From: an uncultured Patescibacteria group bacterium
GTDB lineage: Bacteria > Patescibacteriota > Microgenomatia > UBA10105 > UBA927
Reading direction: 5' to 3'
Length of the DNA stretch: 38,830 nucleotides
NCBI GenBank assembly: GCA_937921305.1
Contig: CAKZSU010000003.1
Span: 1-38,830, forward strand
A model generated the notes under the pieces. That model did no database searches, was not told the DNA's origin, and saw only the letters and a program-made list of their open reading frames with translations. Both the position numbers and the translations under genes were made by a program. Of the stretch, positions 21,566 to 24,333 are shown in pieces (position 1 is the stretch's first letter; every line of letters begins with the position of its first letter).

Positions 21566-22024
21566 TTACTGCCCCACTTCCATTCTGGCAAATCGCGCTA
21601 TGGTGATGTTCTCTCCAACTTTTGCAATGACGCTTTTGATTAGCTGTTCAATCGTTAGTTTTGGATCTCGAATATATTCAGATTGAAGCAACTCTTGAAT
21701 ATCTTTTGGATTCATTGCCGCGATTTGCATGCTTATTTCTTTTGCAAGATGTTTAAAATCATCGGTTCTTGCCACAAAATCTGTTTCACATCGAATATCT
21801 AAAAGAACGCCTACTTTATTAGTCGCATGAATATAAGCGTAGATAATGCCTTCTGCGGTTTCTTTTCCTTCTTTTTTCTTTGCTTTTTCTAACCCTCGTT
21901 CTTGAAGCAATTGTTTTGCTTTGTCATATTCGTTATTTGCGTCTTCCAACGCTTGTCGGCAATCTGCGATACCAGCCCCTGTTTCTTCACGAAGTTTTTT
22001 TAATAATTCAATCGGAACATTCAT
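21566..22024 (-). CDS. tsf: Elongation factor Ts (short form)
   Basis: IELLKKLREETGAGIADCRQALEDANNEYDKAKQLLQERGLEKAKKKEGKETAEGIIYAYIHATNKVGVLLDIRCETDFVARTD. Confidence 0.97.
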   Translation of the reverse strand: MNVPIELLKKLREETGAGIADCRQALEDANNEYDKAKQLLQERGLEKAKKKEGKETAEGIIYAYIHATNKVGVLLDIRCETDFVARTDDFKHLAKEISMQIAAMNPKDIQELLQSEYIRDPKLTIEQLIKSVIAKVGENITIARFARMEVGQ

Positions 22025-22824
22025 GCTGCCCCCTCCTCGTCTTGTTGTTCTTCTTGTTTTTTTGTTTGCTTTTTTTGCTTTGTTTTTTTTGTTTCTTCTT
22101 TTGGTTGAGTTTTGATTTTTTCTTTTTGTTCTTCTTTTTCTTGTTGTTCTTTTCCTTCTCGATACGCTTCTGTTAGCGCGTCAATGATGTATGTGATAGA
22201 TCCGATCGCATCGTCATTTGCTGGGATTGGATAGTCGACAAGAGATGGGTTAACATTTGTATCTACGATCGCGATAACAGTAACGCCGATTCGTTTTGCT
22301 TCTTTTATTGCCGCATCTTCCTTTTTTGCGTCTGTGATGCAAATCGCTCGTGGAAGATTTCCTAGTTTTAAGACTCCTTCGTATGTCGCTTTCAATCGTT
22401 CAAGGTGTTTTGTTAATCTTACTTGTTCATGTTTTGGAAATTTTTGCCATTCATTTGCGTCTTTTTCTTGTTGCATGCGATTTGCTTTTGCAACATTTTG
22501 TCTAATGCTTTCCCAATTTGTCAGAAATCCTCCGATCCACCGTTCAATAAGGTACGGCGCTCCAGCTTTCTGAGCGTATTCTTTTACAACGCTTTTTGCT
22601 TGCCGTTTTGTTCCAACAAACAGTATCTCATGACCTTCCATAGCGAATTGTTTTACCGCTTCTCGAGCTTCTTCAAGAGATTGTTTTGTTTTCGCAAGAT
22701 CGATGATATGAATGCCATCTTTAACGGTGTAAATGTATTCTTCCATTTTTGGATCCCATTTTTCCGCTTTGTGTCCGAAGTGGCATCCCGCTTGCAATAA
22801 ATCTTCAAGAGCAATTTGTTTCAT
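22021..22824 (-). CDS. rpsB: 30S ribosomal protein uS2
   Basis: MKQIALEDLLQAGCHFGHKAEKWDPKMEEYIYTVKDGIHIIDLAKT...IVDTNVNPSLVDYPIPANDDA; K/Q/E-rich tail. Start at M20 of the ORF. Confidence 0.97.
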   Translation of the reverse strand: MKQIALEDLLQAGCHFGHKAEKWDPKMEEYIYTVKDGIHIIDLAKTKQSLEEAREAVKQFAMEGHEILFVGTKRQAKSVVKEYAQKAGAPYLIERWIGGFLTNWESIRQNVAKANRMQQEKDANEWQKFPKHEQVRLTKHLERLKATYEGVLKLGNLPRAICITDAKKEDAAIKEAKRIGVTVIAIVDTNVNPSLVDYPIPANDDAIGSITYIIDALTEAYREGKEQQEKEEQKEKIKTQPKEETKKTKQKKQTKKQEEQQDEEGAA

Positions 22825-22988
22825 AGAATAAAAAATGCCGCGATACGCGGCGTTTCCTCCTTCGTATCTTCTTTTTATCACCCGCTTCCTACCTTAATTT
22901 TATTTTTAAATTTTAAGGAAAGAAGATAAAGGAAGCGTGATAAGATTTTATCTTATCTATTGTATCAAAGAGTAAACGCTAACGTCAA
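22825..22988 (-). promoter_or_regulatory. rpsB promoter and structured 5' leader
   Basis: TTGACG (22988-22983) N18 TACAAT (22964-22959), then stem CGCTTCCT/AGGAAGCG extended by TTATCA/TGATAA, alternative 10-bp pairing 22919-22928 with 22865-22874, SD GAAGGAGG, and GCCGCG-TAT-CGCGGC-ATTTTTT hairpin before the ATG at 22824. Confidence 0.6.
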
Positions 22989-23567
22989 TGGAGGAGATTC
23001 TTGTTCGATAAATTTTTGATAATGCGATTCGATCTGATTTATAAAATATTTCACGCGTTGCGCCCATGTTGGTGATGTCGCGTATCGTTTTCCAATTTGT
23101 TCTACCGTGAGGAATCCTTTATTGAGGTAGTGCTCCCGCAATCCTTTTGAGACACTTTCAATACCATGGTCCCAATTTTGGAATCGTATACCCGGTGAAT
23201 CTGGAGTGTAGACGCCCCACCCCCATGCGTTATAAGAACTTTGAGGGATACGTTTTCCAAACGATGATTCGAGTCCGGCGATCGCTGGAAGTAGCTTCCA
23301 ATCAAGGTTATACGTGTCCGCGTGTCGAACAAAATTTTCCGCAAATGGCTCCAATGGAGATTTTCGTAATGAAAGATAGTGACGAAGCGCCTCAACCCGT
23401 TTATCTGGTTGTTTTTCATTGTGTTTTTTTTGCGTTGAAGACTCAATGAAAAGGGAAAGTTTTGCGGTTTGACCTGCTTCAGGCGTTTTCACATTTGCAT
23501 GGTTTGCGCATATGGGGCAGAAAAAAAGAACTATAAGAAGCGCTGCGCTTGTAAGGGTTTTTTCCAT
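22965..23567 (-). CDS. Secreted lysozyme/glucosaminidase-like fold protein
   Basis: Signal-like N-terminus; NLDWKLLPAIAGLESSFGKRIPQSSYNAWGWGVYTPDSPGIRFQNWDHGIESVSKGL, catalytic-Glu and NAWGWG motifs of transglycosylase-like domains. Confidence 0.75.
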   Translation of the reverse strand: MEKTLTSAALLIVLFFCPICANHANVKTPEAGQTAKLSLFIESSTQKKHNEKQPDKRVEALRHYLSLRKSPLEPFAENFVRHADTYNLDWKLLPAIAGLESSFGKRIPQSSYNAWGWGVYTPDSPGIRFQNWDHGIESVSKGLREHYLNKGFLTVEQIGKRYATSPTWAQRVKYFINQIESHYQKFIEQESPPLTLAFTL

Positions 23568-23721
23568 AAAAAAACCCTAAAGCAGACATCGAATTCTACC
23601 TTAGGATCTGGAAAGGATTATATAATACTTTTATAAGCCTGTCAAGTACTATGGGATATAATAGTTAAAAACTATATCAAAAAAGATTATTAGAGATTAT
23701 AGCGGTGTACAGAGGAAGAGA

Positions 23722-24333
23722 TTAATAAATGCTTTGTTGGAAGGTTTCAACGCATTTGCTCCATGAGTGTCCTTTTTCTACCGATGGCGGGGCGTAGATA
23801 GCTCCGATCTCTCGCAAGGTATAAATTCCTCTGTCGATGTATCGTTCTTTTAAGTATCGTGATACCCATTCGATAGCATGTTCCCAATTGTTAAACACTT
23901 TTCCGCTTTGCATGCCGGTGTAAATCGCTATCCCCCACGCGTTGTAGGAATTTGGGGGCATTCGTTTTCCAAGATTGGATTCACACATGGCAATGGAGAC
24001 CACAAGGCGGAAATCAATACCATTTTTATCGGCTTCTTCGACGATTTTTGAAGCATAAGGTATTAACGGGGAATCATGTTGTTTCAGAAATTCTTCAAGC
24101 AGTTTCGTTCGAGCGTCAGCGGCGACAATTTTTGCGCCCAATACTTGTGAAGTTTGATATGACGCGTTAATCGATGATACAGCTCTATCGGCAAGCGGCG
24201 AAAGGAAGAGTGAATTGTCTGCAACTCCTGTTCTTGATGAGGAAAGAGAGTAAAGAAGGAAGATATTCGAAAAGAGAAGAATTGACGCTATGGGAAACCA
24301 TGTTAATGGCAATAAGATTTTTTTTCCGATCAT
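23722..24333 (-). CDS. Secreted lysozyme/glucosaminidase-like fold protein (paralogue)
   Basis: GIDFRLVVSIAMCESNLGKRMPPNSYNAWGIAIYTGMQSGKVFNNWEHAIEWVSRYLKERYIDRGIYTLREIGAIYA; collinear with the neighbouring ORF. Confidence 0.75.
   Translation of the reverse strand: MIGKKILLPLTWFPIASILLFSNIFLLYSLSSSRTGVADNSLFLSPLADRAVSSINASYQTSQVLGAKIVAADARTKLLEEFLKQHDSPLIPYASKIVEEADKNGIDFRLVVSIAMCESNLGKRMPPNSYNAWGIAIYTGMQSGKVFNNWEHAIEWVSRYLKERYIDRGIYTLREIGAIYAPPSVEKGHSWSKCVETFQQSIY

Follow-up and report, generated by a model that had tools for sequence, protein, structure and literature searches.

The stretch of DNA analysed here (the window, 38,830 nt) belongs to a genome of 970 kb, which we place in the Microgenomates group of Patescibacteria, and carries on its minus strand a structured leader followed, in order, by rpsB, a short tsf and frr. 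The ATG start codon of rpsB lies at 22824, and the coordinates of the genes and of the leader features upstream of this position are given in Table 1. In the Pfam EF_TS profile, the EF-Ts product matches approximately the initial third. Upstream of the leader, the gene previously described as lysozyme-like (22965–23567, minus strand) is accompanied by a second gene of this type at 23722–24333, also on the minus strand, and both of these adjacent small proteins are weakly glucosaminidase-like (PF01832, below cut-off). The −35 box of the rpsB promoter is situated inside the former gene, which is itself preceded by a perfect (12/12) sigma-70-type promoter, TTGACA-N17-TATAAT, at 23645–23617 of the same strand.

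Table 1. Genes and leader features at the rpsB locus, with positions given in the window
Feature	Position	Strand	Evidence or remark
rpsB, ribosomal protein S2, 267 aa	22021–22824	−	Pfam Ribosomal_S2, E=1.2e-79
tsf, short EF-Ts, 152 aa, overlaps the end of rpsB	21566–22024	−	Pfam EF_TS, E=9.4e-21
Promoter, TTGACG (22988–22983), 18 nt, TACAAT (22964–22959)	22959–22988	−	10/12 consensus match
Invariant CA immediately 5' of P1	22938–22939	−	CA in 91/91 distinct leaders; also in E. coli t44
P1, 5' strand, CGCUUCCU	22930–22937	−	P1 paired and covarying in relatives
Pseudoknot, 5' strand, UAUCUUCUUU	22919–22928	−	Pairs with 22874–22865
Variable hairpin in P1 loop, CCUUAA/UUAAGG in the window	22892–22918	−	Present in the window
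P1, 3' strand, AGGAAGCG	22883–22890	−	As for the 5' strand of P1
Linker J2, GGUGAUAA, 8 nt	22875–22882	−	Consensus G-A/C-G-G-N-N-N-A; G1 and G4 invariant in 91/91 distinct leaders
Pseudoknot, 3' strand, AAAGAAGAUA, shared with antiterminator	22865–22874	−	Pairs with 22928–22919
Antiterminator, 5' strand, GAUACG, overlaps 3' strand of pseudoknot	22863–22868	−	6 bp with CGUAUC (22847–22842)
SD-like GAAGGAGG	22856–22863	−	From sequence; 31 nt from start codon, probably not a working SD
Terminator hairpin, GCCGCG-UAU-CGCGGC, contains 3' strand of antiterminator	22837–22851	−	Shape of the sequence
U-run, AUUUUUUAUU	22827–22836	−	From sequence; ends 2 nt before rpsB start codon

The promoter-like sequence put forward in the initial annotation is indeed present, and is the sole site of this kind on the minus strand between 22988 and the start of rpsB; it places the predicted transcription start near 22952. 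The pairings proposed for the RNA are likewise all found on this strand: a 14-bp stem formed by TTATCACGCTTCCT (22943–22930) and AGGAAGCGGGTGATAA (22890–22875), an inner stem of CCTTAA (22918–22913) with TTAAGG (22897–22892), and a 10-bp helix (22928–22919/22874–22865) that crosses the long stem. The leader folds more stably than its dinucleotide shuffles (z −2.7, with 3 of 200 shuffles as good), and in the window alone the crossing helix surpasses those obtained with shuffled loops (p ~0.003). Overlooked at that stage was an intrinsic terminator, consisting of a hairpin (22851–22837) and a U-run, that lies between the supposed Shine–Dalgarno (SD) sequence and the ATG.

An S2 gene was found in 56 of the 59 genomes searched, and the regions upstream of these genes were read. 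Most of the leaders share a single architecture: CA, P1, the 5' strand of the pseudoknot, a variable hairpin, the 3' strand of P1, an 8-nt linker and the 3' strand of the pseudoknot. Several loci, for example L017, L019, L020, L021 and L026, had their stems assigned manually or did not enter the model. In a MAFFT alignment of 35 leader cores (A1), P1 was 97.1 % paired, 6 of 6 aligned pairs had changed on both sides, and covariation reached 0.80 versus 0.35 when shuffled, whilst slid registers were paired to 47 % at most. For 92 leaders found with a covariance model, in an alignment that leans towards the structure, these values were 99.6 % paired and 0.94 versus 0.32. The crossing helix was evaluated by pairing the loop of each leader with its own tail and with tails permuted among leaders, the register being re-optimized each time. 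Across 91 leaders the mean score was 17.7 for true partners, as compared with 11.8 ± 0.28 for permuted ones and a maximum of 12.7 in 300 permutations; the helix is a genuine pseudoknot. The initial annotation had made its reading hang on conservation and covariation in relatives, and the aligned rpsB leaders do keep both P1 and the pseudoknot.

These comparisons also revise the picture of the long stem. Its inner portion corresponds to P1, whereas the outer UUAUCA/UGAUAA pairing, which would complete the 14 bp, is specific to the window, and we rejected it as part of the conserved fold. In its place relatives retain a linker of 8 unpaired nucleotides, so that the pseudoknot is not strained, as had been supposed when a switch was favoured over it. 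The 3' strand of the pseudoknot begins 8 nt after P1 in 63 of 91 leaders, and the helix itself measures 6–11 bp in Microgenomates leaders. The linker of the window is off consensus at positions 2 and 3, and retains the invariant G1 and G4 together with the usual A8. The hairpin in the P1 loop varies freely in sequence and length among relatives. In five leaders (L017, L021, L023, L027 and L029) an extra hairpin is located within the linker, which thus tolerates insertions. At the 5' end, a TATAAT-like −10 element peaks 12–13 nt before the invariant CA in 50 of 92 relatives' leaders, indicating that these leaders begin almost at the 5' end of the transcript; in the window this distance is 19 nt.

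With a covariance model of the element (R1), 85 of 382 class genomes gave a single match each, a lower bound in view of the strict filters used, as did 18 of 382 genomes of a phylum sample, some of which are shared with the class search. At every one of these matches (85/85 and 18/18) rpsB was found downstream on the same strand, mostly directly so; a small ORF intervenes in L031 and L117, and a longer spacer in some others. In several class genomes (e.g. L122, L123, L127, L132, L134, L137 and L138) the stretch read 5' of rpsB had no obvious leader, and the element is therefore common, not universal. When the window was excluded from the model, its leader site still ranked first within the window, with a marginal score (E=0.23, 15.8 bits); the same model did not recover the site in a search of the whole genome. 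As this score is weak, membership rests also on the position before rpsB, the 10-bp pseudoknot and the terminator pairing described below, by which we judge the window leader to be a divergent member of the Microgenomates leader group.

What follows the pseudoknot falls into two patterns. In the family of the window and a few others it is a terminator, and in 21 of 21 such leaders the 3' end of the pseudoknot, or the bases just after it, can form a third pairing of at least 6 bp with the terminator. This antiterminator is preserved through changes in sequence: the pairs read GAUACG/CGUAUC, GAUACAG/CUGUAUC, AACACGU/GCGUGUU, UGAGCC/GGCUCA and GAUACGCC/GGCGUAUC in different leaders. Compared with shuffled terminators, the helix has a combined p of ~2e-18 (19 of the 21 leaders used, not corrected for relatedness). 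At the level of sequence, the window leader thus has the layout of a transcription attenuator, with an intrinsic terminator between leader and gene and a mutually exclusive antiterminator. Many other Microgenomates families are without a terminator and instead carry AAGGAG or a similar sequence in the 3' strand of the pseudoknot just before the ATG; of 52 leaders in which the start codon is at most 15 nt away from the element, 45 show an SD-like sequence immediately before this codon.

Alternatively, the hairpin might terminate transcription constitutively or function in translation, with no switching role, leaving the leader to repress translation only or to serve as a passive 5' UTR. In the window the terminator far exceeds the antiterminator in stability (−11.0 versus −5.2 kcal/mol), the latter having 6 bp only, and readthrough accordingly needs a kinetic or factor-assisted explanation; moreover, the U-run touches the ATG in some relatives (L009, L014 and L016). 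However, no promoter-like site exists between the terminator and the ATG, so that termination at all times would shut off an operon that is essential, and the retention of antiterminator complementarity in 21 terminator leaders further renders this reading improbable.

Another reading is a translation switch, in which the long UUAUCACGCUUCCU stem frees GAAGGAGG as an SD and the alternative pairing, in which CUUCC/GGAGG prolongs the pseudoknot strands, conceals it. The minimum free energy fold of a 144-nt stretch does pair the region of the pseudoknot strand with this SD-like sequence, and in other families the same fold acts on the SD. In the window, however, GAAGGAGG is placed far from the start codon with the terminator hairpin between them, its position holds no SD-like sequence in relatives of the same, terminator-type layout, and the outer stem is not conserved. 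We rejected GAAGGAGG as a working SD because of its distance and lack of conservation, and regard a switch of this type as unlikely. The mutually exclusive pairings announced in the initial annotation are thus upheld in another arrangement: what is conserved is the pseudoknot, which would itself do the switching, in competition with the terminator.

Because its 3' strand holds either half of an antiterminator or an SD, the pseudoknot is expected to act as a switch, which once formed would bring about termination or a hidden SD. The formed pseudoknot would consequently be the OFF state, with two different outputs pointing in the same direction. We consider it likely that the rpsB leader is an autoregulatory S2 leader in which an excess of S2 causes early termination. 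P1 and the pseudoknot, joined by the G-rich 8-nt linker, would make up a putative S2-binding element, and free S2 in excess would stabilize both. With the 3' strand AAAGAAGAUA occupied, the downstream hairpin GCCGCGUAUCGCGGC would fold unopposed and RNA polymerase would halt in the U-run shortly before the ATG of rpsB. At low levels of S2, GAUACG at the end of this strand would be available for pairing with CGUAUC in the terminator, allowing readthrough into rpsB-tsf-frr. In many other Microgenomates, where the SD is in this strand, the same fold would block translation. Against this S2-leader reading stand the weakness of the window's antiterminator relative to its terminator, the marginal score from the model built without the window, the Rfam results given below, and the observation that the window alone has UUAUCA/UGAUAA, which would pair the linker away.

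Searches of the window and its relatives with Rfam, at gathering and at relaxed thresholds, gave no credible match, and the two models of known S2 leaders, RF00127 (t44) and RF01815 (rpsB motif), remained below their cut-offs in both. A sub-threshold RF00127 match of 18.4 bits was located on the rpsB leader of G001. We also rejected a match to Phe_leader in the window (30.8 bits, below the 55-bit cut-off), as it rests on a generic layout of hairpin plus terminator. Nevertheless, the element has the features of an S2 leader, being placed directly 5' of rpsB(-tsf) on the same strand and having a P1 with a loop-to-3'-extension pseudoknot and a CA-P1 ... P1'-GAGGNNNA core. A search with R1 of 308 kb comprising 52 rpsB loci, most of which came from other phyla, gave eight matches with E<5, all on the plus strand and at most ~120 nt upstream of rpsB. 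At four of these loci, themselves from other phyla (L075, L047, L104 and L098), RF00127 and/or RF01815 matched the R1 sites with E-values from 3e-5 to 1.2, and R1 and RF01815 coincided in Caldithrix, Calditrichia, Cyanobacteriota and Clostridia loci. For E. coli, R1 aligned in register at t44 with a non-significant 5.2 bits, and homology is for this reason argued through intermediate sequences.

The E. coli t44 leader reads CA-CACGUAUC ... GAUACGUG-GAGGCAUA-ACCCC. Like the Microgenomates leaders it stands upstream of rpsB-tsf, with the same order of elements, the CA and GAGGNNNA; its CA-P1 has GUGGAGG at the end of P1, a linker of 8–9 nt, GAGGCAUA(A), follows, and the 3' strand after P1 pairs back into the loop (PMC2704228). 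It differs in that the E. coli pseudoknot is short (~5 bp) and the ribosome-binding site is outside the operator (PMC10931766), whereas the Microgenomates helix is longer and has the SD or antiterminator in its 3' strand. The rpsB motif, likewise found ahead of rpsB, also combines P1 with a loop-to-3'-extension pseudoknot (Meyer et al. 2009, PMC2704228), but the group of the window is without P2 and has a variable loop hairpin, RF01815 does not match these leaders, and neither Microgenomates nor other Patescibacteria are among the lineages listed in PMC2704228. We therefore treat the window leader as part of the same broad S2-leader lineage, and not of RF00127 or RF01815 as modelled; apparently it represents a divergent, undescribed branch of a known family and not a wholly new kind of RNA. 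The opinion in the initial annotation that it resembled no leader that could be named is hence at odds with core nucleotides, topology and gene context held in common with t44 and the rpsB motif.

The initial annotation had left open whether the leader responds to S2 or to a metabolite. In SAM-II and preQ1-II riboswitches, the 3' strand of a pseudoknot carries the output sequence. The present leaders are alike in outline, and could represent a metabolite riboswitch of this H-type that happens to control rpsB, given their compact pseudoknot with a terminator or SD as output and the conserved bases of their linker. No Rfam riboswitch matched at threshold, however, and the core agrees with the known S2 leader; rather than metabolic genes, rpsB alone follows the element in every match checked, and the ligand is presumably a protein. 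A metabolite riboswitch is thus highly improbable, and S2 is the likely effector, with no metabolite needed.

The autoregulation of rpsB-tsf by S2 that the initial annotation cited is established in E. coli, where S2 represses the operon; a 2024 review calls the mechanism unclear, given that the operator does not include the ribosome-binding site (PMC10931766). Control of a ribosomal protein leader by transcription attenuation is known from Bacillus subtilis rplJL, whose L10(L12)4 leader concerns a different protein and gene (PMC4538822). Patescibacteria are named neither in a survey from 2020 that covers new ribosomal leaders (PMC7247131) nor in a 2024 survey (PMC11109978), and we found no described ribosomal protein leader for the Candidate Phyla Radiation in the literature searched. 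The leaders reported here would supply this group with a class of regulatory RNA and extend the S2 leader to a lineage missed by Rfam models. In addition, they make the output explicit, as the 3' strand of the pseudoknot contains the SD or half of the antiterminator, which suggests a simple and testable mechanism. More tentatively, the pseudoknot of S2 leaders could be a portable protein-sensing module with its 3' strand as a general output, coupled to a terminator in some Patescibacteria families and to an SD in others; stabilization by S2 might then be the mechanism of autoregulation everywhere, including E. coli, although we find this generalization somewhat doubtful.

Two variations in what adjoins the element were also seen. 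In L031 and L117/L214 (class family f13) the leader precedes a small ORF of ~70 codons that lies 5' of rpsB, and the pseudoknot strand is positioned over the SD of this ORF. In L128, L135, L174, L178 and L203 the start codon adjoining the leader would add a Lys/Ala-rich N-terminal extension to S2, a feature not shared by the S2 of the window.
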